From NCBI GenBank assembly GCA_012839475.1, contig DUNG01000014.1, positions 1 through 64,000 of the forward strand: 64,000 bases of DNA. The letters are read 5' to 3'. Each line of letters opens with the position of its first letter. The first letter of the stretch is position 1. The notes beneath the pieces are model-generated. The model worked only from the letters and a program-made list of their open reading frames with translations, was not told the origin of the DNA and did no database searches. The DNA is from Petrimonas sp. GTDB lineage: Bacteria; Bacteroidota; Bacteroidia; Bacteroidales; Dysgonomonadaceae. Below are positions 16,960 through 54,652 of this stretch, piece by piece. The position numbers were made by a program, and so were the translations under genes.

Positions 16960-17069
16960 CAAAGATAGCCCTTTATAGAATAAGAAACCATCCCTATAAA
17001 TGGTGATTTTTTGACCTGAAAACCCCATGATATGGGGATTGACCCCCTTACCCTTTCTTATGAACTTTG
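16960..17069. promoter_or_regulatory. Operator-promoter element A (divergent)
   Basis: Left box CCATCCCTATAAATGGTG (16988-17005) and right box ACCCCATGATATGGGGATTG (17022-17041; CCCCAT/ATGGGG palindrome) span 54 bases. Rightward: TTG 17039-17041, 20 bases, -7 GAACTTTG 17062-17069, serving the TonB receptor at 17192. Leftward: TGG in place of TTG at 16988-16990, exactly 20 bases, then a perfect TATCTTTG (minus, 16960-16967), serving the His-rich protein and the receptor at 13731. It is the first of five related elements in the window. Confidence 0.75.
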
Positions 17070-17191
17070 TATGTTGATTTTTCTTGAAACCGAAAAGAGG
17101 TGTTCACGCCCCTCTTGATGCTCCTTGTACACTTTGCTCCCGGGAAAACGGGGGCGTAAGACAACAAGAAAACGGGGCGAAAGACAAGATA

Positions 17192-20155
17192 ATGGGTAGA
17201 GGTATCATACTACAAGTCGTACTCCTTGTTATATCCGGTTCGGTAGCCGCGCAAGCCACCTTCCCGGTTAAAGGTTCCGTGGTGGATGCCAGCAACAAGC
17301 AGGCCATTGAACTGGCTACTATTTGGATACCCGAGTTAGATCGCTGGACTACGACCGACAAGGAGGGACGTTTTACCATTAACAACGTGACGGAAGGACG
17401 CTACGAAGTTCAATGCAAGGTGTTGGGGTACCGCGATACCACTTTCCAGGTTAATGTGAACGACAAGTTGAAGTTCCTGGATATAGCGCTATCCCCCAAC
17501 TCGTTAGCACTTCCCGAGGTGGAGGTAACCTCCAAGATGGGTTCCCGAAACCTTGCGACCACCTACAACATTGACCAGACTGCCATACAGCATATGCAGC
17601 TGCTCAACGTGGCCGACGTGGGTAGCTTGCTGCCGGGCGGCAAGAGCAGCAGAAACAACACGCTCAACTCCGCGTCCTACATCGCCCTGCGGAGCAAACC
17701 TGGCGGTGAGAGCGATAACCCCACGTTCGGTACCGGCGTGGAGGTAGACGGCTTAAGGTTATCCACCAACAGTGCTTTCTCGCAAGCTAACGCCATGCAT
17801 ACCTACGGGGTGGACACCCGCAATATCGCCAGCTCGAACGTGGCTTCGGTCGAGGTAATCACCGGTATCCCGTCAGTGGAGTACGGGGACATCTCGAACG
17901 GGGTGGTAAAAATAAACACGTTCCAAGGAAAAACGCCCCTCCACTTCCTCTTTTCAAGCAATATCAACAGTAAGCAGCTGGCCGTGAGCAAAGGCTTCGC
18001 CCTACGTGAGCAGCTTGGAATCCTTAACATGAATATAGAACGGGCTAAATCGGTAAGCGACATCGCTTCGCCCTACACCTCATACAGCAGGAACAGCTTA
18101 TCGCTCAAGTACAGCAACACGCTGAACCGGGAAAATGGGCGCCCCCTATCCCTCGTGGTGTCGTTGACGGGCAACGTGGGCGGCTCCAACTCGGTAAACG
18201 ACCCGGATGCCTTCCGGGACACCTACTCCAAGCGGAGCGACAACACCCTCCGGGGCGGTATCCAAGCCACGTGGCGAGTCAACACCGCATGGTTAAGCAA
18301 CCTGACCTTTTCCCTGTCGACAGTGCTTTCCAACAACACCTCCGAACAGAAAACAAACGCCTCGTCACCGGTTTCAACCGCCTCGCTACACGGCAAGGAG
18401 GAGGGCTATTTCGTGGCTACCCATTACGCCGAAAATCCGAATGCCCACATCCTTATCGTACCCCGAGGCTATTGGTACAACACGGTTTACGAGGAGAACC
18501 GGCCATCAGACCTCCGCTTGGAGCTGAAGGTCGATCTAACCAAAAAGGTGGCGAATAGGGTCTACAGCAAGTCGAAGGTCGGCACCCAACACGTGGCAAG
18601 CGGCAACAGCGGGCGGGGCATTTATTACAAGGATCTGAGCCTGGCACCCACGTGGCGAGAATTCAGGTACAGCGATGAACCCGTGATGCACAACACCTCT
18701 TTTTTCGCCGAAGAGAAGCTCATCGTGATGATCCATTCACACAAGCTGGAAATGATAGCCGGCCTACGAAACGATTTCACCTACATCGCCAAATCGGAGT
18801 ACGGACTGATTAGCAGCCTCTCGCCCCGATTCAATATCGGTTTTCAATCAGATTACCGGAACGACCGGTTATTCCGCCGTTACTCGCTGCACGCGGGATG
18901 GGGTAAAATGGTGAAGCTGCCTTCGTTTACCATCCTCTACCCCCGCCCCTCTTATACCGATGAGCTCACGTTCGCGCCCGGCACGTTGGCAGATGGCACC
19001 ACTTTCTACGCTTACCATACCATGCCCAGCCGGTTGATCTACAACAGCGGGCTGAGGTGGCAGGAGAACCAACAACTGGAAGTGGGGGTAAGTGGCACGA
19101 TGGGCAAAACGAACATCAGTGTATCGGCCTTTTACAACAAAACCGGTAACCCGTACATGCAAAACGCCGAATACGTACCCTTTAGCTACAAGTTCACGGG
19201 ACAAACGGCATTGGAAAACAGCCCGATCCCCTCGGCAAACAGGCGCTACCAAGTAGATCAGGAAAGCGGCATCGTGAGCGTGGTGGATAGAACCGGCATC
19301 ATTCCCACCTATCCACTGGATTACAAGGAGCGCACGCGGTTCAAGGGGAACTATTATTACGAGAACGGAACGCCGATTCACCGCGTGGGCTTGGAGTGGG
19401 TAATCGATTTTGGCAAAATAAAACCGCTCAACAGCTCCATTCGGGTGGATGGCAACCTATATCACTACAAGAATTCCGAGGATCGGATGTTACCGGGTAC
19501 GTCGGGCAACCGGATGTCAGACGGGAACCACTACAAGTACTTGGGATTCTACCCGGGTGGGACATCTGTTTCAAACGCCTCGCTCACCAAAGAGTGTAAC
19601 ACGAACCTAACCCTCGTCACCCACATCCCGAGCGTACGGCTCGTGGTATCATTGCGGGTAGAATGTTCGCTCTACAGCTACAGCCAAAGGCTTAGCGAGT
19701 GGCATGGCGAAAGACGCGGGTTCGTGCTTAACGCGAAGGAGGATTACTTCCCCTCGGCAACGAAATGGGACATCTACGAGCGTGATCAATTCGTGGGGCT
19801 TTACCCCGATTATTACGTGAGTATCGACGATATGCAAACTAAAATACCCTTCGAAGAGGCGTTCAGGTGGGCAAAAGAAAACGACCAGGTACTCTACAAC
19901 GATTTGGCACGCCTGGTGAAAAAGTCGAACTACAAATCCACCTTTAACCCCGCGCGGCTCACCCCCTTCTACTCGGCCAACATCAACGTCACCAAAGAGA
20001 TAGGGGAAAATGTTTCCATCTCTTTTTACGCCAAGAACTTCCTGAACAACCTGGCGCAAGTAAAAAGTACTGAAAACAACCGGAAGCAGACGCTTTACAA
20101 CAGCGGTAGGATACCCGCGTTCTATTACGGGCTAACCTGCAGGGTAAAAATATAG
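17192..20155 (+). CDS. TonB-dependent receptor (DUF4876-linked type)
   Basis: The open frame begins at a TTG at 17084, but the ATG at 17192 gives a proper signal peptide (ending VAAQATF) and 987 residues, and leaves a 5' leader of about 115 bases. A carboxypeptidase-like domain (about 28-110, VKGSVVDASNKQAIELATIW) precedes a plug with SSNVASVEVITGIPSVEYGD and a long barrel. The start of a three-gene set with the DUF4876 lipoprotein and a barrel protein, 46 and 6 bases apart, under operator A. The ligand is unknown; context suggests a metal or metal complex. Confidence 0.88.
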   Translation: MGRGIILQVVLLVISGSVAAQATFPVKGSVVDASNKQAIELATIWIPELDRWTTTDKEGRFTINNVTEGRYEVQCKVLGYRDTTFQVNVNDKLKFLDIALSPNSLALPEVEVTSKMGSRNLATTYNIDQTAIQHMQLLNVADVGSLLPGGKSSRNNTLNSASYIALRSKPGGESDNPTFGTGVEVDGLRLSTNSAFSQANAMHTYGVDTRNIASSNVASVEVITGIPSVEYGDISNGVVKINTFQGKTPLHFLFSSNINSKQLAVSKGFALREQLGILNMNIERAKSVSDIASPYTSYSRNSLSLKYSNTLNRENGRPLSLVVSLTGNVGGSNSVNDPDAFRDTYSKRSDNTLRGGIQATWRVNTAWLSNLTFSLSTVLSNNTSEQKTNASSPVSTASLHGKEEGYFVATHYAENPNAHILIVPRGYWYNTVYEENRPSDLRLELKVDLTKKVANRVYSKSKVGTQHVASGNSGRGIYYKDLSLAPTWREFRYSDEPVMHNTSFFAEEKLIVMIHSHKLEMIAGLRNDFTYIAKSEYGLISSLSPRFNIGFQSDYRNDRLFRRYSLHAGWGKMVKLPSFTILYPRPSYTDELTFAPGTLADGTTFYAYHTMPSRLIYNSGLRWQENQQLEVGVSGTMGKTNISVSAFYNKTGNPYMQNAEYVPFSYKFTGQTALENSPIPSANRRYQVDQESGIVSVVDRTGIIPTYPLDYKERTRFKGNYYYENGTPIHRVGLEWVIDFGKIKPLNSSIRVDGNLYHYKNSEDRMLPGTSGNRMSDGNHYKYLGFYPGGTSVSNASLTKECNTNLTLVTHIPSVRLVVSLRVECSLYSYSQRLSEWHGERRGFVLNAKEDYFPSATKWDIYERDQFVGLYPDYYVSIDDMQTKIPFEEAFRWAKENDQVLYNDLARLVKKSNYKSTFNPARLTPFYSANINVTKEIGENVSISFYAKNFLNNLAQVKSTENNRKQTLYNSGRIPAFYYGLTCRVKI

Positions 20156-20201
20156 CCAACATGGTGAATAATAAACTATTAACAATAAACAATGTAGAAT
20201 T

Positions 20202-21545
20202 ATGATTATGAAAACAAAGAGACATTTACTTTACCTGGGGTTGATCACCATCATGCTGACCGCCCTTTCATGTGAACGAACCACGGACGAGTACAAAACC
20301 TACCCGCTGACCGTTGAGCTGGTGTACCCGGATGGGTATAACGCGAAAAAAGATATCACGGTGACGCTAACCAGCACGGCAGACAGCAAGACGATGGAGG
20401 CCCAAACCGATGAGAACGGGGTGGCCAAGTTCACCGTCACGGTAGGTGTGTACGACGCTTCGGCCACGGATAACCGCACCGGCGACGGCGTGGCTTTCGT
20501 GTTGAACGGTGCTGAACGAGGCATTATCGTTAACGATCAATGGACGGGAACCGAAAACGTGAAGGTAAGGCTCAGCGAGTCGAAGCTCAGCCAGGTAATC
20601 ATCAAAGAGGTATATTACGGTGGAACACCCACTGATGATGGTTCCAGACCGTTCGCGTATGACAGGCACGTGATCCTGTACAACAACTCCGCCCTACCCG
20701 CCTCGTTAGACAACGTATGCCTGGCGATCACGCTTCCGTACAACCCGCACGCGACCAACTTGGATTACGTGGACGGGAAGCTTTTTTACGAGAACGAGGG
20801 CTGGTGTCCCGCAGGGCAAGCCTTCTGGTACTTCCAGAATCCGGTTACCCTGGAACCCTACTCGCAACTGGTCATCGCCCTGTTCAACGCGGTGGACAAT
20901 ACCCAAACGTACAGCAAGTCCATCAACTTCGCTAATCCCGAGTACTACTGCACGTACGATATTGAAAAGTTTAACCACAAAGCAAGCTACCCATCTCCAT
21001 CCGAAGTGATTCCCACCTCTCACTACCTGAAGCCTCACGTCTACGGAACGGGGACGGCATGGGTGTTCAGCCAGCTCGGGCCCGCGTTCTTTATCTTCGC
21101 ACCAGAAGGGCAATCTGTCGAGCAATTTGGCACGGACGCGAACAATCTCGACATGTACGGGGGCAGAGCCAGTCAGGTACGTAAAAAAGTGCCGGTGAAG
21201 TGGGTGTTAGACGGTGTAGAAATATTCATGCAAGGTGCAGATAGTAACCGGAAGCGCCTGAACACGGAGATTGACGCCGGGTACATTCACGGCATCAATG
21301 GTATGGGCTACAGCATCTATCGGAACGTGGATAAATCTGCCACCGAAGCCATTAAAGAAAACGAGGGCAAACTGATCTATAACTACGCGATGGGTACCCA
21401 GGATATTGAAGGCGGCACCACGGATTCCAGCGGCATCGATGCCGAAGCATCCATCAAAAACGGGGCGAAGATAGTCTTTATGGATACAAACAACTCATCC
21501 AAAGACTTCCACCAACGCAAAGAGGCGTCGTTGAGGTACAAGTAA
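20202..21545 (+). CDS. DUF4876-type lipoprotein
   Basis: A 447-residue lipoprotein; the lipobox is MLTALSC (Cys25). ATGs at 20202 and 20208 are both possible. An Ig-like N-domain (about 28-110) is followed by a lamin-tail-like region (LSQVIIKEVYYGGTP, then HVILYNNSALPASLDNVCLA), which is the DUF4876 pattern. Such proteins form outer-surface partners of the TonB receptor encoded just before, and likely capture or hand over its ligand. Gene order receptor, DUF4876, barrel protein supports one transport complex. Confidence 0.75.
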   Translation: MIMKTKRHLLYLGLITIMLTALSCERTTDEYKTYPLTVELVYPDGYNAKKDITVTLTSTADSKTMEAQTDENGVAKFTVTVGVYDASATDNRTGDGVAFVLNGAERGIIVNDQWTGTENVKVRLSESKLSQVIIKEVYYGGTPTDDGSRPFAYDRHVILYNNSALPASLDNVCLAITLPYNPHATNLDYVDGKLFYENEGWCPAGQAFWYFQNPVTLEPYSQLVIALFNAVDNTQTYSKSINFANPEYYCTYDIEKFNHKASYPSPSEVIPTSHYLKPHVYGTGTAWVFSQLGPAFFIFAPEGQSVEQFGTDANNLDMYGGRASQVRKKVPVKWVLDGVEIFMQGADSNRKRLNTEIDAGYIHGINGMGYSIYRNVDKSATEAIKENEGKLIYNYAMGTQDIEGGTTDSSGIDAEASIKNGAKIVFMDTNNSSKDFHQRKEASLRYK

Positions 21546-21551
21546 ACGGGT

Positions 21552-23345
21552 ATGGAGCCACGACTGCTATCCCTGGCCGTTCTGCTGCTCATTGGCGGAG
21601 CACTGCGCTCCGCCAATCCAGCTGATTTCACCAATTCGGCCGGCACGGCGAATTCGATCGGCATGGCGAATTCGGTCGGCGCATCCAACTCGGCTTGTTT
21701 CGCCCATTCTGGTGACTTTACCAATGCGGCCAGCCTCCCCTCTCCCGACTCGCTACGGTGGCTTAGCTTCCGTCACGTGAAAGGGAGCGATGCCCGTTTG
21801 GTGTCGGAAAACGGGGCTTGGCTTCACGCGTTGCCCGATCTACGCGTTTCAGAGGCCCGCTTTCTGGTGAACAAAAGCAACGGGAACTTCATCGACTACT
21901 TTCAATCGCCCGACAGTTACACGCTGGGGGGTGAAGCCGAATCGTTTTATCGCGTCACCCCCCGGCTTGTGTTTCACGGGTGGGTGAGCTACCACAACTT
22001 CACTGGCAAGCAGATGGGCGGCTCAGCGTTTATCGACCCGACTTACGCCCCGTTCAACATGGTGGAGTCAACCGACACCACGAGGGGGACAAAACAGCGG
22101 GAGGCTTACCGACTGACCGGGTCTTTGGCGTACGACCTATCGAAACGGGTCACCTTGGGCGCTAAGGTGGATTACACCTCCACCAATTACACCAAGCGGA
22201 AAGATTTGCGCCACCGCAACAAGTTGCTCAACTTGGTAGCCACCGCGGGAATGAGCTACCGATTAACCCCAAGGATCGAAGTGGGCATAAACACGTTCTA
22301 CCGCAAGCGTGTGGAGGGAGTTTTCTTCAACACCTACGGGACGACCGACAGGCAGTACACCTCGCTGGTGGATTTCGGGACGTCATACGGTCGCCACGAG
22401 CTCTTCGTGGAAAACGGCGATGGCTATACCTCCGGGAAGAAGGAGCGACCGTTGACCGACGCGTATCACGGGGGAGCCGTGCAACTACAGCTCAACCTCT
22501 CTCCCCGGCACTCGTTCTTCAACCGCTTTCATTACCGGCACCGAAGCGGGTATTACGGCATCCCCTCCTCTTCAGAGGTGACCTATACCGAACATAAGGG
22601 AGATGAATGGGGGTACCTGGGTAGCGTGGTATATAAAACCGCCAGAAACCGCCACAGGATAGACGTGGAACTGGAAAGCGAAACGCTGACAAACGCCGAA
22701 AACATATACACGATAGAAAATGAAATCGGGGGATTCTCTTTCGTGGAGTACCACGGCATAAACGAGCGACTACACCGGTATAGAAGAAAAATAGGGGCTG
22801 AATACAGCGGCTACATCAACGTCAAAAACGGTCGGTCGCTATGGCTCGTCACCGCCTCGGCAAGCTTTAACACGCGAAACGATAAAACATCGCTCTACCC
22901 CTTTTTCCGGGAACAACGCCTCACGTATTGGCGCGTGAACGGCCTCGTGAGCAGAAGCCTCGCGAACCGATCACCTCACTGCCTTATCCCGGCCGTGGGC
23001 CTATCGTTTGGCGGGGGTAGCGGTCTCCCTTTCTCTGACGGGCTCTACGCTACCCCGTCACCGACGGAAACAGCACCGCCATCAGCTGACTTCAACCTGT
23101 ATACCCAACACCATTACATCACTGCCACGCGCATCGGCTTTCACCCTGCGCTGCGGTACGAAATCATTTTGAAGAACCGGGCCACGGGGAGCGTTACCCT
23201 CCGTTACGACAGAATACACGCGTTGACCAGTCATCCCGACAAAACGGGCGATCAGAACACAGCAGGCAATCAATATGCACCTGGCAATCGGAACAAACCG
23301 AACGACAGGCAGCAACTGCTCCTTTCATTGGGGTACCAATTCTAA
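21552..23345 (+). CDS. Outer-membrane beta-barrel protein, DUF6850-like
   Basis: The 597-residue protein starts 6 bases after the DUF4876 gene. It has a signal peptide, then a curious Asn/Ser/Ala-rich segment (residues about 20-60) built of short repeats such as SIGMANSVGASNS, and then alternating beta strands typical of a TonB-type barrel without plug. The C-terminus ends LLLSLGYQF, a barrel-insertion signal with terminal Phe. This corresponds to the DUF6850 barrel family usually encoded with DUF4876. Function is unknown; a companion porin is a guess. Confidence 0.7.
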   Translation: MEPRLLSLAVLLLIGGALRSANPADFTNSAGTANSIGMANSVGASNSACFAHSGDFTNAASLPSPDSLRWLSFRHVKGSDARLVSENGAWLHALPDLRVSEARFLVNKSNGNFIDYFQSPDSYTLGGEAESFYRVTPRLVFHGWVSYHNFTGKQMGGSAFIDPTYAPFNMVESTDTTRGTKQREAYRLTGSLAYDLSKRVTLGAKVDYTSTNYTKRKDLRHRNKLLNLVATAGMSYRLTPRIEVGINTFYRKRVEGVFFNTYGTTDRQYTSLVDFGTSYGRHELFVENGDGYTSGKKERPLTDAYHGGAVQLQLNLSPRHSFFNRFHYRHRSGYYGIPSSSEVTYTEHKGDEWGYLGSVVYKTARNRHRIDVELESETLTNAENIYTIENEIGGFSFVEYHGINERLHRYRRKIGAEYSGYINVKNGRSLWLVTASASFNTRNDKTSLYPFFREQRLTYWRVNGLVSRSLANRSPHCLIPAVGLSFGGGSGLPFSDGLYATPSPTETAPPSADFNLYTQHHYITATRIGFHPALRYEIILKNRATGSVTLRYDRIHALTSHPDKTGDQNTAGNQYAPGNRNKPNDRQQLLLSLGYQF

Positions 23346-23414
23346 TGAAACGGCTATTTTTACGGTTAAGAAGGTAAAAGTAAAAAATCAGTGAGTCAGC
23401 GATAATCCACGATT

Positions 23415-24452
23415 ATGGATAAAAAAGCAGAAAACGATATAACAACAGTTCGGGGCAAGAACGATGGCCAGGAACTTTACGACCACGTGCATCTCCCACC
23501 TCATCATGCACATTCCCACCATCACGACCATCATCATCACGCGCATCACCATCACCACCACGCGCACACTGAAAACTTGCGGGGGAGGAAATTGCTGTGG
23601 GTTACGCTGCTCAACTTCTCGATCAGCGTGGTACAAGTCGTGGGTGGAATCGTGTCCAACAGCCTCTCACTTATTTCAGACGCGATACACAACCTGGGTG
23701 ACACCTCCGCCATTTTCATCGCCTTTTTAGCCGGGAAGCATGCCGCTAAAAAACCGGATGCCCAAAAGACTTTTGGCTACAAACGTGCCGAGATCCTGGC
23801 GGCCCTCTTTAACGGGGTGGTGCTCATCGCTATCTGCATCTTCTTGTTCGTGGAGGCCTACAAGCGCTTTATAAATCCACAACCTATCAAAGGTGGCGTG
23901 ATGCTGACGGTAGCCGTTTTCGGGCTGCTGGCCAACCTGATCTCGGTACTGGTGTTGCAGAAAGAGAAGTCACACAACCTGAACGTACGTGCCGCGTACC
24001 TGCACCTGTTGGGCGATACGCTCTCGTCGGTAGCGGTCATCGCGGGCGGTATAGCCATTATCGTTTGGGACGTTTACTGGATCGACCCGCTCGTGACCGT
24101 CGCCGTGGGGGTTTACATCACGTACCACACCTGGGGCGTGGTACGCCAAACGGTCGATATCCTGATGCAGGCTACGCCACGCCATATCGATATTCAAAAA
24201 ATCAAACAGACAGTGGAGACGTTGCCGCAAGTGGACAACCTCCACCACCTGCACGTGTGGCAGATGGATGACGAACAGGTTCACCTGGAGGCCCACCTCA
24301 ACATCTCCCGGGATATGCCGCTCAGCGAGGCCCAAACCGTGCGCCATGACGTGGAGACCGTGTTGAGAGATACATTCGGCATCGGCCACATCACCCTGCA
24401 AATCGAGTATAAAGGGTGCGAGGATAACGACGGGCTGATTTTTCGCCAATAG
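23415..24452 (+). CDS. Cation diffusion facilitator, CzcD/ZitB-like zinc exporter
   Basis: A 345-residue CDF antiporter of the inner membrane. The N-terminus has a dense histidine tract (about residues 23-54, with HHDHHHHAHHHHHHAH), then six helices and a cytoplasmic domain. The zinc sites HxxxD are visible as DAIHNLGD in helix 2 and HLLGDTLSS in helix 5. The C-terminal domain carries HHLHVWQMDDEQVHLEAH. Zinc/cobalt/cadmium export is typical; iron is possible. A near-identical paralogue lies at 52641. It ends just before operator B and closes the receptor operon. Confidence 0.9.
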   Translation: MDKKAENDITTVRGKNDGQELYDHVHLPPHHAHSHHHDHHHHAHHHHHHAHTENLRGRKLLWVTLLNFSISVVQVVGGIVSNSLSLISDAIHNLGDTSAIFIAFLAGKHAAKKPDAQKTFGYKRAEILAALFNGVVLIAICIFLFVEAYKRFINPQPIKGGVMLTVAVFGLLANLISVLVLQKEKSHNLNVRAAYLHLLGDTLSSVAVIAGGIAIIVWDVYWIDPLVTVAVGVYITYHTWGVVRQTVDILMQATPRHIDIQKIKQTVETLPQVDNLHHLHVWQMDDEQVHLEAHLNISRDMPLSEAQTVRHDVETVLRDTFGIGHITLQIEYKGCEDNDGLIFRQ

Positions 24453-24490: not shown

Positions 24491-24573
24491 CCATCCCCAG
24501 AAATGATGATTTGTTAACCTGTAAAATCCCATGATATGGGGATTGCCCCCTTTTTAATTTAGTGTGAACTTTG
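24491..24573 (+). promoter_or_regulatory. Operator-promoter element B
   Basis: Left box CCATCCCCAGAAATGATG (24491-24508) and right box TCCCATGATATGGGGATTG (24527-24545), 55 bases overall. The final TTG (24543-24545) is the -33, followed by 20 bases and -7 GAACTTTG (24566-24573). It serves the OB-fold lipoprotein at 24635 and the genes behind it. No leftward -7 box is present, consistent with the convergent upstream gene. Confidence 0.75.
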
Positions 24574-24634: not shown

Positions 24635-25213
24635 ATGAAAATCTCGAGAACAATTTTGTTCATTTTAACGCTCTCTTGCCTACTTATTTCGTGCAACCAG
24701 AAACAAAAAAGCACCCCAAGCGAAACCGCTAAAATCTCCAAAACAATGCAGGTAGACGACCTACTAAACAACGCCGAAGGGCTTGTTGGCGAAACCGTGG
24801 TCGTGGACGGTGTTTGCACGCATATTTGCCGACATGGCGGGAAAAAAATCTTCTTGATGGGTAGCGACGATACCCAAATCATCCGTGTAGAGGCAAGCGA
24901 CAACATCGGTAGTTTTAGTCAGGAAACCGTGAATAGCATCGTGGAAGTGAAAGGCATTTTAATGGAGCAACGCATCGACGAGGCTTACCTGGTGGATTGG
25001 GAAACGAGACTGGCAGCAGGAACAGCTGAGGAACACGGAGATGGAGAAGAGGGATGCGCTACGGAGCAAAAAGCCCAAAACGAACAACCGGCTAACACGG
25101 AACAGGAGCGTATCGCCAACTTCCGGGAACGCATCGCGGAACGAAATGAAAAGGAGGGAAAGAACTTCCTGTCGTTTTATTTTATCGAGGCCGAGGAATA
25201 TACCATCCAGTAG
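24635..25213 (+). CDS. OB-fold-like lipoprotein with CxxxCxH motif
   Basis: A 192-residue lipoprotein (CLLISC, Cys20). Residues about 38-110 form a compact beta domain of OB-fold style, with VGETVVVDGVCTHICRHGGK and then IIRVEASDNIG. The motif C-T-H-I-C-R-H offers metal or haem ligands. The C-terminal third is Glu/Gln-rich and likely helical. A diverged homologue at 32448 keeps H-(I/V)-C-(R/K)-H in the same place, and both sit next to uptake genes, so I infer a periplasmic metal or haem carrier. First gene behind operator B; the PepSY gene follows 45 bases later. Confidence 0.72.
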   Translation: MKISRTILFILTLSCLLISCNQKQKSTPSETAKISKTMQVDDLLNNAEGLVGETVVVDGVCTHICRHGGKKIFLMGSDDTQIIRVEASDNIGSFSQETVNSIVEVKGILMEQRIDEAYLVDWETRLAAGTAEEHGDGEEGCATEQKAQNEQPANTEQERIANFRERIAERNEKEGKNFLSFYFIEAEEYTIQ

Positions 25214-25258
25214 CGGGCGACAACCCCATACACCTCATTTTCAACCAAGATACACGGT

Positions 25259-25840
25259 ATGACTAAAAAGCGTTTAACGGGAGCACATTGGCGAAAATGG
25301 TTTCGTGTGATACATCGTGATTTGTCGTTTTTCTTTTCGGGCGTCATCATCATTTACGCAGTTTCGGGGATCATGCTCAATCATCGCGACAGCATCGATC
25401 CGAACTACACGGTAAAGCGGCACAGCCTGCAGGCGGAAGGGACATTCCCCATGACCCAGGAGGATATTTCCCAAGCGATGGTCATGGAGATGCTGAAACC
25501 GATACATGAGGAGAAGAACTACACGAAACATTACTTCCCCGCAAACGACAAACTGAAAGTTTTCTTAAAAGGTGGTTCTTCGCTGGAAGTGGATATGCAG
25601 AGTGGGAAAGCAGTGTATGAGGCACTAAAAATGCGTCCTATCATCAGCCAGTTCAACTGGTTGCATTACAATCCGGGAAAAGGGTGGACGGTTTTCTCGG
25701 ACATCTTCGCCGTTTCGCTCATCATCATCACGCTAACCGGTATATTCATAAACAAGGGTAAAAAAGGTGTTTTAGGACGAGGAGGTATTGAGTTGCTGGC
25801 CGGGATTATCATACCGATCCTGTTTATCCTGCTACTATGA
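25259..25840 (+). CDS. PepSY-associated membrane protein
   Basis: A 193-residue inner-membrane protein of the PepSY-TM type. An N-terminal helix (about 20-40, LSFFFSGVIIIYAVSGIMLN) is followed by HRDSIDPNY, a periplasmic PepSY-like domain (about 60-130) and two C-terminal helices. His18 (VIHRDLSFFF), His42 and His140 (FNWLHYNPGKGW) are placed as in haem-coordinating PepSY reductases. Relatives assist reduction of siderophore or haem iron (XusC-like function); here that role is inferred from family and neighbours. Confidence 0.8.
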   Translation: MTKKRLTGAHWRKWFRVIHRDLSFFFSGVIIIYAVSGIMLNHRDSIDPNYTVKRHSLQAEGTFPMTQEDISQAMVMEMLKPIHEEKNYTKHYFPANDKLKVFLKGGSSLEVDMQSGKAVYEALKMRPIISQFNWLHYNPGKGWTVFSDIFAVSLIIITLTGIFINKGKKGVLGRGGIELLAGIIIPILFILLL

Positions 25841-25982
25841 ATACCGCACAGTGTGATTTTAGCCGTGACTTTCATACGATTATTTTACTCATGTCGGCTT
25901 CATGGCCAATTTTGTTTATGCTTTTATTATACGATTGAACGATAAGCACATACTGTTACAATTATTTACACGAAACATTGCA

Positions 25983-26870
25983 ATGAACCCAATCATCACA
26001 TGTACTAACCTCACGCATCATTACGGCAAACGGTTGATATACGAGAACCTGAACTTTTCCGTACCCGAAGGACGTATTTTGGGACTGCTAGGAAAAAATG
26101 GCACAGGCAAAACCACGACCATCAATATTTTAAATGGCTACCTGAGACCTTCGAGCGGCGAGTGTACTATTTTCGGGGAGAACATTCGACATATTAACCC
26201 CATTACAAAACAACGCATCGCGCTGCTTATTGAAGGGCATGTACAGTACTCGTTTATGAATATTGAGCAGATTGAGCGATTTTACGCGTCGTTTTATCCG
26301 AAATGGAGAAAGGAAGCCTATTATGAGCTGATGGAGCTGCTTAAAGTGGCACCCCGACAACGAATCGCGAACATGTCATGTGGACAACGCTCGCAAGTAG
26401 CACTTGGGCTTATCATGGCTCAAAATGCCGACCTGCTTATCCTGGACGACTTTTCGCTCGGATTAGACCCGGGCTATCGCCGCCTATTTATCGAATACCT
26501 GCGTGAATACGCTAAAAGCGAACGAAAAACCGTATTTCTCACCTCGCACATTATTCAAGATATGGAGAAACTTATCGATGATTGCATCATTCTCGATTAC
26601 GGGAAAATACTTATTCAACAGTCGGTAAGCGAACTGATGAACAGGTTTAAAAAATACACCTTCAAGATAAACGATGCGCGTTCATCATTACCCGCCAACG
26701 ATGAGTTTTACAATCCGGCGGTATATCGGGGAAACGGCGAACTGTTCTCCTTTCAAAGCACGGAGTACGTGGAGCGATATCTCGGCAAACATTCCATTGA
26801 ATACAGCCAGTTGAAGACGGAAGAACTGAATTTGGAAGATATTTTTATCGGACTTACAGGAAAATATTGA
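25983..26870 (+). CDS. ABC transporter ATP-binding protein with altered active site
   Basis: The ATG at 25983 gives 295 residues and starts right at the ABC domain. Walker A is GLLGKNGTGKTTT (about 35-47). The signature is MSCGQRSQ rather than LSGGQ, and Walker B is LLILDDFSLGLDP, with Asp where the catalytic Glu normally stands. The H-loop is TSHI. The pattern resembles YtrB-type ABC-2 ATPases. It pairs with the membrane protein at 26889, 18 bases later. The altered signature and Asp suggest slow hydrolysis or a gating rather than pumping role. Confidence 0.85.
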   Translation: MNPIITCTNLTHHYGKRLIYENLNFSVPEGRILGLLGKNGTGKTTTINILNGYLRPSSGECTIFGENIRHINPITKQRIALLIEGHVQYSFMNIEQIERFYASFYPKWRKEAYYELMELLKVAPRQRIANMSCGQRSQVALGLIMAQNADLLILDDFSLGLDPGYRRLFIEYLREYAKSERKTVFLTSHIIQDMEKLIDDCIILDYGKILIQQSVSELMNRFKKYTFKINDARSSLPANDEFYNPAVYRGNGELFSFQSTEYVERYLGKHSIEYSQLKTEELNLEDIFIGLTGKY

Positions 26871-26888
26871 TTATACACAACTAAAACT

Positions 26889-27557
26889 ATGATTAAAGCA
26901 ATACTATACAAAGAGTGGATTAAAACACGCTACCTGTTTCTGCTGTTGGCGATAATCTTGGTGGCTTTTACAGCCTATTGTCAATTACGCATCGGCAAAG
27001 TGGTTAGCTTGCGCGGCGCGGCTCATTTATGGGAAATACTGCTTACACGCGACCATACATTTCACGAAACCATGCGGTACGTTCCGCTTTTTTCGGGTAT
27101 CCTATTGGCCCTGTTTCAGTTTGTACCCGAAATGCAGCAAAAACGGCTTAAGCTGTGCCTGCATCTACCCCTGCCGCAAAGCAGGATAATGGGTACCATG
27201 CTCGGCTTCGGGGTCAACCTGCTGATGGCTCTTTTTGTAGCGACGTACCTGATTATAGGTTTATACCTGTACCACGTGTTAGCCCCCGAGCTTATAAGTC
27301 GTATTTTGCTAACCATGCTGCCTTGGTTTGTTGCGGGCTTCGCGGGGTATGCTTTCGTTGCCTTTACCGTGTTGGAGCCTACTTGGCGACGACGACTGTT
27401 AAACGTGTTGGCGGGTGTCGCTTTTATCCGAATTTTTTACTTGTCGAGCTATGCCGAAGCCTACAATCAAGTTATCGTGTGGCTGTTGATAATAACACTT
27501 GCCTTGGTCGGATTCTCTTTCCTATCGGTTTCCCGATTCAAAGATGGTGTGCAGTGA
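26889..27557 (+). CDS. ABC-2-type permease subunit
   Basis: A 222-residue membrane protein with about six hydrophobic segments (about 13-32, 57-78, 98-124, 135-158, 170-185, 192-212). No sequence motif is diagnostic, but the position behind an ABC ATPase and before a DUF4857 protein matches a recurrent Bacteroidota gene set. It is expected to form the membrane part of that ABC transporter. The substrate is unknown. Confidence 0.65.
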   Translation: MIKAILYKEWIKTRYLFLLLAIILVAFTAYCQLRIGKVVSLRGAAHLWEILLTRDHTFHETMRYVPLFSGILLALFQFVPEMQQKRLKLCLHLPLPQSRIMGTMLGFGVNLLMALFVATYLIIGLYLYHVLAPELISRILLTMLPWFVAGFAGYAFVAFTVLEPTWRRRLLNVLAGVAFIRIFYLSSYAEAYNQVIVWLLIITLALVGFSFLSVSRFKDGVQ

Positions 27558-27582
27558 GCTTTTCCGGTTATTTCTGAACCCC

Positions 27583-27638
27583 GACTTTGGACTTTGGACT
27601 TCCAACTTCCAACTTCAAGCTTCAAGCTTTGAACTTCC
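27583..27638. repeat. Heptanucleotide array R1 (8 units)
   Basis: Eight perfect-period 7-base units with consensus RRCTTYN (GACTTTG, GACTTTG, GACTTCC, AACTTCC, AACTTCA, AGCTTCA, AGCTTTG, AACTTCC). It lies between the permease and the DUF4857 gene, inside a probable operon. Confidence 0.85.
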
Positions 27639-27670
27639 AATAAAATTTAATTAAACACGAATAAAACATC

Positions 27671-28894
27671 ATGAGTAAAACGTATAAAATCATTTACTAT
27701 ATACTCCTAATAGCTATTTTGGCCTGGTTACTGCCGTGGCTCTACAATTTGGCCACGTTAAAAAGATGGTCAACGCCCTTCACGTTATACAGCGAAATTA
27801 TCGAGGATTTTGCCATGATCAACGTGAATTACGATGAAAAAGCATCCCGTTTCATCGACCGAAAAGGCAACTCTTACACCGAAACGCAATTTGACAGCAT
27901 TTTACCTATGTTTTACTACCGCCAACTCGTTACCGACAACAAGTTGCCCGATACCATACGAGGTACCCACGTTACATCGTCTATAATAAGGAGGGAAAAT
28001 TTCATATTCCGCTCGCGTCCATCGGAGATCAACATGCATCATCCGGGTCTCTATCCTCTGCTCGAATCAAGGTCGAAACGGGTTGATTTGGTGATGCCCG
28101 AAGATGTTTTCCGCTTAACGAAAAACGGCATCGAGTTTATTGACATGGAGGTCAATCAAGTGAACAGGGAAAAATCCGCGTTGTTTCAGTCCGTTTTCAT
28201 ACAAAAAGAGGTCGCTTTTCCCGTCCAAACCATAGCTGGAAATCCAACTAATAGAAAAGAGTACGATGAAGGGTATCTATTCACCGACAACGACGGCAAA
28301 CTTTTTCACCTAAAACAGGTGCAAGGACGACCTTTCCTAAGACCCATACCGATAGATCCGGAAATCAACATATCGCGAATCTGGGTAACGGAACTTTCAA
28401 ACCGCAAGTACTTCGCGTTTCTCACCGACGCGAACAACCACTTTTACGCGCTTACAGCACCCGATTACAACTTGGTGAATATTGATATTCCGCCTTTCAA
28501 ACCCGAAAAAGAGAGCATGACCATTTTTGGTAACATGTTTACCTGGACGGTCGTTCAATCCAACAACACAGACGAAATAGTGACCGCCGTTGATGCCAAA
28601 ACCCTTGCAGCAATAGACAGCATGACTTTCTGCAATCCCGAAAAAGATAAAATAGGGACGGCATCCTACCTTTTCCCGTTACAATTGAGTTTCACCTCTA
28701 CAGTGGACAAATTTTTCTACCCCCGACTGAAAGCGTTTTCATGCCATGCTTTGGTGTTAAATTTGGTATTACTCGTCTTGTATGTCGTCTTATGTAGAAA
28801 AAATAAGTTCTCTGCCATGTACCTCTTTAAAGCGGTAGCGGTAGCAGTTTTAGGAATTTTTGCATTTATCCCTGCCCTGTTACTAAAACAATAA
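27671..28894 (+). CDS. DUF4857-type membrane protein
   Basis: A 407-residue protein with an N-terminal helix (about 8-26), a large extracytoplasmic beta-rich domain and two helices at the C-terminus (about 350-370 and 382-403). It matches the DUF4857 proteins that accompany ABC-2 transporters and PepSY proteins in Bacteroidota. It is probably the periplasmic/membrane accessory subunit of the preceding ABC transporter. No enzymatic motif is visible. Confidence 0.7.
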   Translation: MSKTYKIIYYILLIAILAWLLPWLYNLATLKRWSTPFTLYSEIIEDFAMINVNYDEKASRFIDRKGNSYTETQFDSILPMFYYRQLVTDNKLPDTIRGTHVTSSIIRRENFIFRSRPSEINMHHPGLYPLLESRSKRVDLVMPEDVFRLTKNGIEFIDMEVNQVNREKSALFQSVFIQKEVAFPVQTIAGNPTNRKEYDEGYLFTDNDGKLFHLKQVQGRPFLRPIPIDPEINISRIWVTELSNRKYFAFLTDANNHFYALTAPDYNLVNIDIPPFKPEKESMTIFGNMFTWTVVQSNNTDEIVTAVDAKTLAAIDSMTFCNPEKDKIGTASYLFPLQLSFTSTVDKFFYPRLKAFSCHALVLNLVLLVLYVVLCRKNKFSAMYLFKAVAVAVLGIFAFIPALLLKQ

Positions 28895-32447: not shown

Positions 32448-32981
32448 TTATTCCAGCTCATACCTTTCAGCTTCTATGCTATAATTGGTATAATATGAGA
32501 TTTTACCACTTGATATTTGCCGATAAATGTCCTGAATAAAAGCTATTTCCTCTTTAAAATGCTCCGTATCTTCCTCACCTTTATGGTTTTCTCTCATTTT
32601 CTTCTCCCATTCTTTTACCTCTTCGGCATCCATTATTACAGGCTTTAATTTTCCTGTGACTTTTGCCTTTTGCCCTACAATAGAAGGGTCAACTGTTGAG
32701 AGATTATTTCCTAATTCAACCTTTATAAATAGATTTTCGTTTTCGCCTATAATTCTAAATCGTTTATGAGAATGTTTACATACATGCTCGATAAGACCCT
32801 CTACGTGAACAGTTTTATCAAACAAAGTTTCGCCATTGGCGAACACTTCATCAACAGTCAAATAATTAATTGATACTTCTGTGTTTTCCCTATTTTCTGT
32901 CTGCTTGTTGTTTGTTTGCTTACATGCATTAACCGACAATAAAACGGCAGCCACCACAATAATTGAAAAAATTTTATTCAT
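32448..32981 (-). CDS. OB-fold-like lipoprotein with HxCxH motif
   Basis: A 177-residue lipoprotein (LLSVNAC, Cys20), homologous to the protein at 24635 across the whole beta domain. Here the stretch is VHVEGLIEHVCKHSHKRF, then LFIKVELGNN, and VGQKAKVTGKL. The shared H-(I/V)-C-(R/K)-H suggests metal or haem binding. It is the last gene of the minus-strand operon that begins with flavodoxin, 11 bases after its TonB receptor. The function is inferred from context only. Confidence 0.72.
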   Translation of the reverse strand: MNKIFSIIVVAAVLLSVNACKQTNNKQTENRENTEVSINYLTVDEVFANGETLFDKTVHVEGLIEHVCKHSHKRFRIIGENENLFIKVELGNNLSTVDPSIVGQKAKVTGKLKPVIMDAEEVKEWEKKMRENHKGEEDTEHFKEEIAFIQDIYRQISSGKISYYTNYSIEAERYELE

Positions 32982-32992
32982 AAATGAAGTTT

Positions 32993-35293: not shown

Positions 35294-35311
35294 AATTTAA
35301 GCCTTCCTTCC

Positions 35312-36007: not shown

Positions 36008-36024
36008 GTCTCTCTTTTTTATTA

Positions 36025-36045
36025 AAAAAGTCATCTTGACTTTTT
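36025..36045. terminator. Possible weak terminator/attenuator hairpin
   Basis: A perfect 9-bp stem AAAAAGTCA/TGACTTTTT with a 3-base loop lies between the DUF6686 gene and the lipoprotein gene. It is AT-rich with the T-run inside the stem, so it may only partly stop transcription in the flavodoxin operon. Confidence 0.35.
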
Positions 36046-36072
36046 ATTCTTATTAATACCCTTTTCCTTTTC

Positions 36073-36477: not shown

Positions 36478-36490
36478 CTTTTCCACAGGG

Positions 36491-37021: not shown

Positions 37022-37131
37022 CAAAAATATTGCGATTACAAACAGCAAGCAATCCCCAGATCATGGGATTTTATTGATAAACAATCATCATTTATAGGGA
37101 TTGATACGGTCATTTTTGTAGGTTAATTTTG
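37022..37131. promoter_or_regulatory. Operator-promoter element C (divergent, inverted copy)
   Basis: The element is inverted relative to A and B. Its left box, read on the minus strand, is TCCCATGATCTGGGGATTG (37050-37068), and its right box on the plus strand is CATCATTTATAGGGATTG (37086-37103). Leftward: TTG 37050-37052, 20 bases, -7 TATTTTTG (37022-37029) for flavodoxin. Rightward: TTG 37101-37103, 20 bases, -7 TAATTTTG (37124-37131) for the copper ATPase. Both -33 boxes thus lie in the operator. Confidence 0.8.
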
Positions 37132-37184: not shown

Positions 37185-39446
37185 ATGACAACAGAAAAAT
37201 ATAATATCACGGGTATGGCTTGCTCCGCATGCGCGGCTCACGTTGAGAAGAGTGTGCAAAAGTTGGATGGCATGCGAGAGGTGAGCGTCAACTTACTGAC
37301 AAACAGCATGTCTGTTGAATTTGACGAGAAACGGTTATCATCACAAGATATTATCCACGCTGTTCAAGAAGCCGGCTACAGTGCTTTTTGGGTACAGCCC
37401 GAAAAAACCGAGTCATCGTCCACAAGAATTGATTACGTGGCAAAAGAACAACAGGCATTGAAGAAACGCTTTATTGCCTCTTTAATATTTCTTGTACCAT
37501 TGATATATCTCTCCATGGGCAGTATGGTTGGGTTGCCTTTACCCCTCTCTATCTCTATTGATAAGAATCCCCTCTTGTTTGCTTTCGCGCAATTTATATT
37601 AACTATTCCCATATTTATCATCAACGGCAAGTTTTTCACTAACGGTTTTCGCGCTCTGGGCAAACTGGTGCCCACTATGGACTCGTTAGTCGCCATTGGT
37701 TCATCTGCCGCGTTTATCTACGGGATTTACGCGTTGGTCAGAATTTATTTGGGGTTGAAACAGGGTGATTGGGAATTGGTGAGTCAATTTTCTCACAACC
37801 TGTTTTTCGAGTCGGGTGCTACTATTTTGACCCTGATAACATTGGGCAAATATTTGGAGGCTCGTTCCAAGCGGAGGACTTCAGACGCCTTGAGCAAGCT
37901 AATCGATTCAGCGCCGGAGACAGCTACCGTGACTCGTTTCGGGGAAGAGGTAGAGATCCCTGCCGAAGAGGTGGTCGTGGGCGATATGGTAAGCATTCGG
38001 CCCGGTCAGAAAATCCCGGTTGATGGAGAGGTCACGGAAGGTATTAGTGCCGTTGACGAGTCGGCTATCACGGGCGAGAGTATTCCGGTAACTAAAGAGC
38101 CGGGCGATACGGTTATATCCGCGAGTATCAACAAAACGGGCTACCTGCTTTTCAGGGCCACTAAGGTGGGCGCAGACACCACCTTTTCGCAGATAGTGAA
38201 GCTGCTGGAAGAGGCGTCGGCGTCCAAGGCTCCTATTGCCCGTTTGGCAGACAGGGTTAGTCGTGTCTTCGTGCCGACCGTAATTCTCATAGCCCTGATA
38301 TCGACCGTCGCCTGGTTGCTGTTCGGACAGTCGTTCGAATTCGCGTTGTCCATTGGCATTTCAGTGCTGATTATTTCATGTCCCTGCGCGCTGGGGTTGG
38401 CCACGCCCGTCGCAATCATGGTGGGAACGGGCAAAGGCGCTGAAAAAGGCATTCTCTTCAAATCTGGCGAGGCACTTGAAATGGGGAGCAAACTTGACGC
38501 GGTGGTGTTCGATAAAACCGGAACGGTTACAAAAGGTGAACTGCGGGTAACCGATATCGTGCCAATTCGGGATTTAGATGAAAATGGATTGTTGAAAATA
38601 GCCGCGTCGTTAGAGGCTTATTCCGAGCATCCTATTTCAAAAGCGGCATTGAGTAGAGCTGAAGAGAAGAAATTGTCGCTTTATCCCGTGTCGAATTTCG
38701 TCGCGGTACCCGGCAAAGGAGTATCGGGAGAGATAGTCGAGAAACAATGCAAAATAGGCAATCAGGCTTATATTTCAGAAAATATTGATACTACAGCTAT
38801 TGACGATTTGCTGTTTAGTATAACTCAACAGGGAAAAACAGCGCTGTTGGTGGCGGACGATAAGAAAGTTTTGGGTGTAATCGGCGTTGCCGATGTGTTG
38901 AAGCCGACCAGTCGCCGAGCCGTGGATGAATTGAAATCGATGGGTATCCACACCGTGATGCTTACAGGCGATTATCGGTTAACCGCACATGCTATACAAA
39001 AGGAGTTAGGTGCGGATCAAGTTATCGCCGAAGTTTTGCCGCAAGATAAAGACAAGGCCATTCAAGAGCTTCGTCAAAGCGGGATGAAGGTCGCGATGGT
39101 AGGCGACGGCATTAACGATGCGCCGGCGTTGGCGCGTGCCGACTTGGGTTTTGCCATGAGTACAGGTACCGATGTAGCCGTGGAGTCGGCAGACGTAGTG
39201 TTGATGAAAAACGATCCGCACGATGTGGTAACCGCTATACGGCTCAGCAAAGCTACCCTGAAAAACATCAAGCAAAACCTGTTTTGGGCGTTTTTCTACA
39301 ATACTATCGGGATACCTTTGGCAGCAGGTATTTTTTACCCGATATTGGGCTGGACGTTAAGTCCCACCTTTGCCGCCATAGCTATGAGTTTAAGTTCAAT
39401 AACGGTGGTGTTAAATGCTTTGCGATTAAAGCGAGTCCTCCTTTAA
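37185..39446 (+). CDS. copA: Cu+-exporting P1B-type ATPase
   Basis: A 753-residue copper pump. An N-terminal HMA domain (about 1-68) has GMACSACAAHVE. Then come the A domain with ITGESIPV, the membrane metal site SCPCALGLATPVA, the phosphorylation site FDKTGTVT, the SEHPISKA motif of P1B pumps and the hinge GDGINDAPALA. The last helix MSLSSITVVLNALRL matches the copper subclass. It shares a divergent operator with flavodoxin, which is unusual, because copper export is normally controlled by copper sensors rather than iron-type regulation. Confidence 0.95.
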   Translation: MTTEKYNITGMACSACAAHVEKSVQKLDGMREVSVNLLTNSMSVEFDEKRLSSQDIIHAVQEAGYSAFWVQPEKTESSSTRIDYVAKEQQALKKRFIASLIFLVPLIYLSMGSMVGLPLPLSISIDKNPLLFAFAQFILTIPIFIINGKFFTNGFRALGKLVPTMDSLVAIGSSAAFIYGIYALVRIYLGLKQGDWELVSQFSHNLFFESGATILTLITLGKYLEARSKRRTSDALSKLIDSAPETATVTRFGEEVEIPAEEVVVGDMVSIRPGQKIPVDGEVTEGISAVDESAITGESIPVTKEPGDTVISASINKTGYLLFRATKVGADTTFSQIVKLLEEASASKAPIARLADRVSRVFVPTVILIALISTVAWLLFGQSFEFALSIGISVLIISCPCALGLATPVAIMVGTGKGAEKGILFKSGEALEMGSKLDAVVFDKTGTVTKGELRVTDIVPIRDLDENGLLKIAASLEAYSEHPISKAALSRAEEKKLSLYPVSNFVAVPGKGVSGEIVEKQCKIGNQAYISENIDTTAIDDLLFSITQQGKTALLVADDKKVLGVIGVADVLKPTSRRAVDELKSMGIHTVMLTGDYRLTAHAIQKELGADQVIAEVLPQDKDKAIQELRQSGMKVAMVGDGINDAPALARADLGFAMSTGTDVAVESADVVLMKNDPHDVVTAIRLSKATLKNIKQNLFWAFFYNTIGIPLAAGIFYPILGWTLSPTFAAIAMSLSSITVVLNALRLKRVLL

Positions 39447-39945: not shown

Positions 39946-40028
39946 GTCTCCCCAATAATGGTGAATTGTTGACCCTTAAAATCCCATCAACTGAGGATTG
40001 ACATGGTCGTTTTTCCAGGTTAATTTTG
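39946..40028 (+). promoter_or_regulatory. Operator-promoter element D (ahead of tetR)
   Basis: Left box GTCTCCCCAATAATGGTG (39946-39963) and a more diverged right box TCCCATCAACTGAGGATTG (39982-40000), 55 bases overall. TTG 39998-40000, 20 bases, then a perfect -7 TAATTTTG (40021-40028). The tetR ATG is 54 bases downstream. Confidence 0.72.
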
Positions 40029-40082: not shown

Positions 40083-40721
40083 ATGAAAACAGAAAAAGAA
40101 GAGATACGCCAAGTGCTAATAACAACGGCACGCGAAGCCTTTTTAAAAAAAGGTTATAAGACCGTGTCGATGCGTGAAATATCGGGAAAATCGGGAGTGG
40201 GACTGAGCAATATATACAACTATTTTGACAGCAAAGACGAACTGTACAGGGTGGTGTTAACGCCATTTTTACACTCTTTTGAAAAGATGATGATTGAACA
40301 CTCAGAAGCGAGCAGGGATACCGAAGTAGATATGTACACTTCCGAAAAGTATCAAGCGGAAACAATTCGATCTTTCCTGGAAGTCTTTCGTCAGTACCGC
40401 CCCGAACTGAAATTGCTCTTTTATGCATCGCAAGGTTCCTGTTTCGAGAACTACTGCGAAATGCTTATCGATAACAACACGCGTCGCAGCCTAGAATACA
40501 TGAAGTTAATCAAAGAAAAAAACCACCTCTTGTCTATCGATATTTCCACGTTTTTTATACATCTCTGTTGTGTATGGTGGGTAAACGTTCTTAAAGAGAT
40601 CGCGGGACACGATGAGTTGACAGACATTGAGATTGAGCGCTTTATCGCGGAGTACGTGCGATTTGCCGCCGCCGGGTGGGAAGCCCTATTCAAAACATGC
40701 GAGTCCAAAAAACAGGAATGA
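40083..40721 (+). CDS. TetR/AcrR-family regulator
   Basis: The ATG at 40083 gives 212 residues and agrees with the promoter of element D; an earlier in-frame start would lie at the -7 box. The N-terminal HTH (about 10-58) is typical: LITTAREAFLKKGYKTVSMR then EISGKSGVGLSNIYNYFDSK. The helical C-domain, with Cys133 and Cys139 (SCFENYCEM) and CC near 177, could bind a metal or ligand. Because the operator ahead of it is the same as those ahead of the uptake operons, I infer self-regulation and control of the whole locus. A strong terminator follows at once. Confidence 0.9.
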   Translation: MKTEKEEIRQVLITTAREAFLKKGYKTVSMREISGKSGVGLSNIYNYFDSKDELYRVVLTPFLHSFEKMMIEHSEASRDTEVDMYTSEKYQAETIRSFLEVFRQYRPELKLLFYASQGSCFENYCEMLIDNNTRRSLEYMKLIKEKNHLLSIDISTFFIHLCCVWWVNVLKEIAGHDELTDIEIERFIAEYVRFAAAGWEALFKTCESKKQE

Positions 40722-51025: not shown

Positions 51026-51127
51026 CGTAAGACTGAATTTATTGAAGTGAAACTAAAACGGGTTATACAGGATATTGTGACGAAGCTGACGACACAAAAG
51101 AGAGTGTAAAAAAATACAAGATTTGAT

Positions 51128-52588: not shown

Positions 52589-52627
52589 AACAGTCACTCA
52601 ATATTGATTTTTAAGGGTGTGAAGTAA
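52589..52627 (+). pseudogene. C-terminal scrap of a class I methyltransferase
   Basis: Twelve codons plus stop read NSHSILIFKGVK. The protein at 31677 ends NHRSLLIFKCVK. The scrap sits directly before the second CDF exporter and suggests that a methyltransferase of the 31677 type once stood here. It is short, but also matches in DNA (TTTTTAA then GTGAAGTAA). Confidence 0.55.
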
Positions 52628-52640
52628 TATATCAGAAATT

Positions 52641-54550: not shown

Positions 54551-54570
54551 TCTGCTTTTTGGATGCTTAT

Positions 54571-54652
54571 CTATCCCCATTTTTGGCTATTTTTCCTACA
54601 CAAAACCATTATTGTTAGGGATTGACCTGTGTTTGGAAAACTTCTTACTTTG
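54571..54652 (+). promoter_or_regulatory. Operator-promoter element E (hmu operon)
   Basis: Left box CTATCCCCATTTTTGGC (54571-54587) and diverged right box ACCATTATTGTTAGGGATTG (54605-54624), 54 bases overall. TTG 54622-54624, 20 bases, -7 TTACTTTG (54645-54652). The hmuR-like ATG follows 60 bases later. It is the weakest copy of the operator but keeps the length and the 20-base spacing exactly. Confidence 0.68.

Follow-up and report, generated by a model that had tools for sequence, protein, structure and literature searches.

The subject of this analysis is a stretch of 64,000 nucleotides from Petrimonas sp. (NCBI GenBank assembly GCA_012839475.1, contig DUNG01000014.1, positions 1 to 64,000 of the forward strand; in the following "the window") and, within it, a DNA element of 54–55 bases that occurs five times (elements A to E) ahead of genes for TonB receptors, flavodoxin, a heavy-metal ATPase and other proteins. 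With a probability of about 0.78 we consider the element to be the operator-promoter of a CdhR-type LuxR/NarL (GerE) factor that is encoded together with a hemerythrin similar to RIC (YtfE), and the genes headed by it would form an iron regulon that is independent of Fur. A regulator of this kind is already known; for an operator of this type we found no published description in the open-licence PMC literature. With a defined operator the regulon can be counted in whatever genome is at hand, and a short DNA probe is available for testing the regulator. The elements and their −7 boxes are located as follows.

16988..17041, + strand: element A; distal dyad approximately 16989–17008, proximal dyad 17021–17040; TTG of the −33 box at the right edge
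17062..17069, + strand: −7 box GAACTTTG of element A
16960..16967, − strand: −7 box of the minus-strand promoter of element A; TTTG 24 bases from the left edge
24491..24545, + strand: element B; proximal dyad 24525–24544, distal dyad approximately 24492–24511 by analogy with A
24566..24573, + strand: −7 box GAACTTTG of element B
37050..37103, + strand: element C; distal dyad 37051–37070, proximal dyad 37083–37102; promoter pattern on both strands
37124..37131, + strand: −7 box TAATTTTG of element C, toward copA
37022..37029, − strand: −7 box of element C, toward the flavodoxin gene
39946..40000, + strand: element D; proximal dyad 39980–39999, distal dyad approximately 39947–39966; lowest score among the five
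40021..40028, + strand: −7 box TAATTTTG of element D
54571..54624, + strand: element E; distal dyad approximately 54572–54591, proximal dyad 54604–54623
54645..54652, + strand: −7 box TTACTTTG of element E

The initial annotation had described five elements of 54–55 bases and a constant distance between their right-hand TTG and the −7 box, and both statements agree with the sequences read at these coordinates: the lengths of A to E are 54, 55, 54, 55 and 54 bases, and the TTG is 20 bases from the 8-base −7 box in all five. In elements A and C the full promoter pattern is present on either strand, so that the five elements make up seven promoter patterns. Only 24–32 of the 54–55 positions match the element's own reverse complement, and the element is better described as two imperfect dyads of approximately 20 bp of the type AATCCC-N8-GGGATT. 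That the whole 54–55 bases form a single palindrome was rejected since at several distant loci the proximal dyad is matched alone.

The geometry of the dyads was determined for 19 promoter orientations, of which 7 lie in the window and 12 in other genomes. The last base of the proximal dyad precedes the G of the −33 TTG by one base, and the dyad is paired at 4–8 of its 10 positions (of the 20-base windows of the window sequence, 23% pair at 4 or more positions, 2.2% at 6 and 0.04% at 8). The best distal dyad, chosen as the best of 12 offsets, is found 32–33 bases upstream of the proximal one in 15 of the 19 orientations, the exceptions being element B and the foreign loci L079b, L086 and L079a at 28, 27, 34 and 34 bases, respectively; in B the computed best distal palindrome therefore lies elsewhere than the position listed above. 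A TTTG starts 24 bases past the dyad-edge G in 18 of the 19 orientations, and in L037 the place is taken by TTCG. It should be noted that for 10 of the 12 foreign sites the search pattern permitted 22–26 bases, so that their spacing was free only in that range, and that L037 and L038 were located through their gene. The distance from dyad to core promoter is thus fixed, as for activation by LuxR-type proteins beside a −33/−35 box. A scan of the window for sigma-70 promoters and terminators gave a result at chance level.

Two sequence models were used to recover such sites in genomes: R1, with 17 training sites including the window's own, which makes it circular for the window, and R2, with 16 training sites all from other genomes. 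The E-values of these DNA models are rough. On the plus strand of the 3.39 Mb of the own genome R2 finds A (E 9.5e-14), C (5.9e-13), B (2.6e-12), E (8.1e-10) and D (1.5e-5), and on the minus strand the complete promoters of A (E 1.1e-10) and C (E 3.3e-12); it also matches the dyads of B without a −7 box. The best match outside the five elements has an E-value of only 0.02, and the strong sites visible to R2 are therefore confined to one cluster of approximately 37 kb. The five elements are not a product of chance. That they form a common motif had been claimed from the window, together with the proposal to scan this genome and other Bacteroidales with a position model; the motif emerges from foreign training sites alone, and the scan returned sites ahead of like genes elsewhere.

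The candidate regulator is encoded on the same contig, 4 kb beyond the end of the window, where it follows the hmu-type genes of element E: a hemerythrin gene (68036–68761; in the following the "partner" gene) overlaps by 4 bases with a LuxR-type gene (68758–69345), the nearest homologue of this type in the own genome. In 6 of the 29 best loci from other genomes (L090, L094, L096, L097, L099, L115) the element is immediately preceded by a hemerythrin gene and a LuxR-type gene, and in 32 of the 33 best partner loci, the own included, the hemerythrin gene is directly followed by a LuxR-type gene, 20 of these pairs overlapping. Linkage was counted among the matches listed, which hold 142 site matches (137 distinct places, some places being matched on both strands) and 149 partner matches outside the own genome. 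Of the site matches, 28 in 25 of 82 genomes are within 3 kb of a partner gene (26 of the 137 distinct places), where 0.25 are expected from even placement over 3.5 Mb (Poisson 3e-47). Sixteen of these lie 580–786 bases behind the partner gene, which is just behind the LuxR gene, 9 lie 30–138 bases ahead of the partner gene and 3 are 2.5–2.7 kb off; none of the linked matches is a training site. As most of the genes behind the partner profile (A3) had been taken from beside sites, the count was repeated without the six genomes that had first pointed to the linkage (the discovery genomes), which left 20 of 129 matches linked in 20 of 76 genomes (0.22 expected), 11 of them preceding the partner gene and 9 following it.

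Site and partner also occur together, which was assessed by Fisher tests uncorrected for kinship. In a sample of 247 genomes of the order (Bacteroidales, judged by the titles of named relatives) the partner is present in 42 of 43 genomes with a site at E ≤ 1e-4 versus 134 of 203 others (Fisher 2.4e-6; G087 and G222 were scored as positive from genome-level matches). In a sample of 247 genomes of the phylum a partner at E ≤ 1e-30 is found in 10, a site at E ≤ 1e-3 in 13 and both in 6 including the own, which without the own genome corresponds to 5 of 12 versus 4 of 234 (Fisher 1.3e-5). The three best-scoring site genomes other than the own all have the partner, and in four of the five double positives other than the own (G320, G308, G172, G080) the site is approximately 1.3 kb or less from the partner gene; G080 and G172 are common to both samples. 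Physical linkage depends less on kinship than these co-occurrence tests.

The hemerythrin partner matches the profiles of ScdA (E 3.9e-12) and YtfE (E 7.7e-7) over almost its full length, and a search of the PDB with its predicted model (mean predicted local distance difference test score, pLDDT, 92.9) places YtfE at ranks 1–7 and ScdA at rank 8 (E 1.1e-3 to 0.23, template modelling score, TM, approximately 0.5). Six residues, H89, H133, E137, H173, H217 and E221, are invariant in 33 of 33 partner sequences; the alignment to YtfE puts them at the iron ligands (the first His off by one in the HMMER alignment), and we take them to be these ligands, so that the partner has the four His and two Glu of the di-iron site of RIC proteins (YtfE/ScdA). 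Its scores against the NCBIfam RIC equivalog, 29 and 66 bits, are far below the cut-off of 204.7, and the partner is therefore a relative of RIC and not a filed member of the family, from which it also differs in the modest fold match and in being one of a pair tied to a LuxR gene. The LuxR partner consists of a receiver-like and a GerE domain (predicted model with mean pLDDT 92.6, predicted TM score 0.66), as do the response regulators VraR and NarL, and its GerE/helix-turn-helix region is strongly conserved. It differs from the response regulators that are phosphorylated: at the phospho-acceptor position of the VraR alignment only 2 of 30 LuxR partners have Asp, and 21 have Asn. That a RIC-type di-iron protein is combined with a LuxR factor mostly lacking this Asp suggests that metal is sensed directly and not through a histidine kinase.

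Dimers of GerE-domain proteins bind dyads of roughly 20 bp; −42.5 is the classic dyad centre for activation by LuxR-type proteins, and contact of the dyad with the −33 box is favourable to activation. The LuxR partner may accordingly be pictured as a dimer on each of the two dyads; the proximal one would be centred near −42.5 if the −7 box is taken at its nominal position, and the distal one would lie three helical turns upstream. The element resembles the known LuxR-type activator boxes in having a dyad of that size abutting the −33/−35 box and is distinguished from them by its own sequence, by an often double dyad and by a −33/−7 promoter of the Bacteroidetes type. The di-iron hemerythrin could signal the iron status of the cell to the LuxR protein through direct contact; the receiver-like domain of the latter mostly has no Asp to be phosphorylated. 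When iron is scarce the pair would activate the genes for uptake of haem, iron and other metals, for flavodoxin and for the copper-type ATPase, and also the export/methyltransferase cluster led by tetR. We infer that one regulator serves all five elements, as the initial annotation had supposed. The signal could also be NO, O2 or the redox state because RIC proteins, which are widespread, are connected with nitrosative and oxidative stress (PMC9268430); iron is preferred because the published stimulons concern iron. The chances are about even that the Bacteroidales have, more specifically, a Fur-independent two-protein iron switch, in which a RIC-type di-iron gauge (of iron or of NO/O2) directly gates, on a double-dyad operator, a LuxR activator that is not phosphorylatable in the usual way. 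If so, it would be a bacterial counterpart in kind of hemerythrin-based iron sensing.

The closest published relatives, cited here from excerpts of the papers concerned, are PG1236-CdhR (PG1237) of Porphyromonas gingivalis and BT0519-BT0520 of Bacteroides thetaiotaomicron, in which a hemerythrin gene is likewise followed by a LuxR-type gene and which are linked to hmu activation and iron starvation. They are equated with the pair described here by gene order and annotation; the excerpts of PMC10434189 and PMC10101095 contain no operator. CdhR is an activator of hmu (PMC10101095) and a negative regulator of Mfa1 (PMC7482874), and its mechanism has been termed unclear (PMC10434189). In a PG_0686 mutant hmu, PG_1019-1020, PG_1178-1181 and cdhR rise together (PMC10101095). 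Limitation of iron raises the expression of PG1019-22, PG1175-81, hmu, flavodoxin and PG1236-37 in P. gingivalis, and that of BT3625-33, BT0491-98, BT0507-09, BT0515-17 and BT0519-20 in B. thetaiotaomicron; the response of gut and oral Bacteroidetes reaches tens to hundreds fold for several operons, and the stimulons of these two species and of Prevotella intermedia, where the two regulator genes are fused into one protein, are sets of genes with like annotation (PMC10434189). The Fur orthologue of P. gingivalis is without the usual metal-site motifs of Fur (PMC4222909).

Several observations weigh against the LuxR partner as the regulator of the element. The dyad symmetry is imperfect, the proximal dyad pairing as described above. 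In the order sample the partner (E ≤ 1e-10) is found in 177 of 247 genomes and a site (E ≤ 0.01) in 115 of 247, many partner genomes being without a found site; G001 has the pair and only a single weak site (E 2.2e-4), and 15 of 39 genomes of the genus show no site, 24 having at least one. Conversely, the partner is missing from G030 in spite of a site (E 5.7e-6), and likewise from 7 of the 12 site-bearing phylum genomes other than the own (site E 4.2e-5 to 9.9e-4), four of these belonging to one genus. When two genomes of the same order are omitted along with the own, the phylum comparison falls to 3 of 10 versus 4 of 234 (Fisher 0.0016). The promoter of the own pair gives no match to R1 up to E 10. 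Without the discovery genomes the linked sites lean less toward the place behind the LuxR gene, and the 9 sites at 30–138 bp ahead of the partner gene could mean that the pair is a co-regulated target. Finally, the response regulator HaeR has been shown by gel shift to bind the hmuY, htrA and ihtA promoters of P. gingivalis (PMC3764172).

From these points follows the alternative that deserves most attention, although we regard it as unlikely, namely that the hemerythrin/LuxR pair is merely another target and that a different iron regulator binds the element. It would explain the linked sites directly ahead of the hemerythrin gene, which form the larger share (11 of 20) once the discovery genomes are left out, and the induction of the pair itself by iron starvation in two species (PMC10434189). 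Ordinary autoregulation, however, would likewise place sites ahead of the pair, and the remaining linked sites lie just behind the LuxR gene (16, or 9 of 20 without the discovery genomes). The size and position of the dyad suit an activator of the LuxR type, the co-occurrence in the phylum sample points the same way, and CdhR is a published activator of hmu (PMC10101095). Moreover, the linkage of the pair exceeds that of Fur and TetR when all are compared at a distance of 3 kb on the 92 sites of the 43 genomes with a site at E ≤ 1e-4: for the hemerythrin partner, with 44 listed genes in 40 of these genomes, 21 sites are near.

Binding of the element by a two-component response regulator of the HaeR kind, considered from the literature and set aside, is very improbable in our view; the gel shifts speak for it, and the excerpt of PMC3764172, in which neither "consensus" nor "inverted repeat" occurs, provides no motif for comparison. 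Equally improbable is the TetR-family protein encoded behind element D as a repressor of its own gene and of the other operons. Element D is ahead of tetR, and in G221, G123 and G228 a site is directly ahead of a tetR homologue, but close homologues (E ≤ 1e-30) exist in only 6 of the 43 site-bearing genomes and only 3 of the 92 sites are near a homologue (31 genes in 20 genomes), for which reasons this regulator was rejected; tetR fits better as a conserved target. Least probable of all is a protein of the Fur family: the targets are iron genes by annotation (the label "iron" coming from the annotation in the published species) and 39 of the 43 genomes have Fur-family genes, but none of the 92 sites is within 3 kb of any of these 67 genes, a distance which alone does not exclude a global regulator, and four site-bearing genomes (G125, G256, G222, G139) give no Fur match, so that Fur was rejected, too. 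The sequence of the element is presumably also unlike a Fur box; that it does not look like one had been noted before, and the placement of Fur-family genes speaks for this. A Crp/FNR-like protein was raised from the shape of the dyad alone and was set aside.

The spread of the element among relatives can be followed from the genus to the order. In the congener G020 elements A, C and D are found between or ahead of orthologous genes (identities of 95 and 70% for the TonB receptors at A, 94% for CopA and 89% for flavodoxin at C, and 97% for TetR at D). Sites at orthologous promoters had been demanded for the regulon by the initial annotation, and this holds for A, C and D; B and E were not found in G020, where the two contigs covered are short. 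The elements are identical to those of the window at 50/54 (A), 47/54 (C) and 45/55 (D) positions, as compared with 75/108, 43/60 and 131/146 in the upstream flanks and 27/29, 45/57 and 56/60 further downstream. A and C thus exceed their upstream flanks, A is not above its downstream flank and D is below both of its flanks, which indicates a shared position and no clear excess of conservation.

The size of the regulon seems to vary strongly within the genus, the most site-rich congeners at E ≤ 0.001 having, with both strands counted, 17 (G022), 12 (G012), 11 (G015) and 11 (G007) sites; G010, G012, G014 and G015 supplied sites to R2. Sites in other congeners are ahead of TonB receptor genes, the ABC pair and a DUF4876/DUF6850 operon, and further ones are ahead of operons that, by their gene sizes, are candidates for hmu. 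Homologues of 31 selected window proteins are encoded at 11 of the 29 best foreign loci and at 3 of 30 control loci; the controls matched a pattern of wrong spacing and were mostly from closer relatives, and L089, L091 and L092 among the 29 are training sites of R1, L089 and L092 being among the 11. The notion of a single metal/haem regulon thereby gains ground, since homologous elements head like genes in other Bacteroidales, and these genes are like those of the published iron stimulons, as far as the excerpts of the latter go. In two Alistipes loci (L044, L045) a single dyad of the element type precedes the gene for a relative of the 192-aa protein encoded behind element B; the dyad of L043 is more divergent.

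In the window the genes behind the elements, assigned by Pfam, form the following putative operons.

13731..16256, − strand: behind element A (minus strand), TonB receptor, possible target, behind a His-rich open reading frame of 137 aa (16468–16881)
17192..24452, + strand: behind A (plus strand), TonB receptor, DUF4876, DUF6850, cation efflux (CDF) protein
24635..28894, + strand: behind B, 192-aa protein, PepSY_TM, ABC ATPase, 222-aa protein, DUF4857
32448..36994, − strand: behind C (minus strand), flavodoxin, DUF6686, 240-aa protein, TonB receptor, 177-aa protein
37185..39446, + strand: behind C (plus strand), copA-type heavy-metal P-type ATPase
40083..40721, + strand: behind D, TetR-family regulator; methyltransferases and an ABC pair follow
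54712..59699, + strand: behind E, hmu-type TonB receptor, HmuY, 318-aa protein; CobN follows across the window end

Pfam annotation confirms that TonB receptor genes, flavodoxin, copA, PepSY/ABC genes and tetR are headed by the elements, as had been stated from the sequence alone; by position and Pfam, the genes headed by E are of the hmu type for haem uptake. Pfam gave no family for the products of 24635–25213, 26889–27557, 32448–32981, 35312–36034 and 58743–59699. The His-rich small open reading frame, on the minus strand, separates element A from the TonB receptor gene, and our guess is that the neighbouring receptor might serve copper or zinc rather than haem. Behind tetR the region 40946–52051 encodes methyltransferases, two LCM-type proteins, an ABC pair and esterase-like and ATC-hydrolase-like proteins; one may speculate that it makes or processes a small metal-binding molecule or a tetrapyrrole. 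The two CDF genes of the cluster (23415–24452 and 52641–53618) are 77% identical over 300 bases and are probably the result of a duplication.

Two kinds of repeats were seen besides. Degenerate runs of 7-base units (GGGAGTC/GGAAGAC type) are present at gene ends (45777–45990, 56960–57229 and 43596–43630), one of them occupying the space that separates the TonB receptor gene from that of HmuY. A 34-base repeat occurs directly behind two unrelated genes (32316–32349 and 52598–52631, 79% alike), possibly as a shared terminator or as the remnant of a mobile element.

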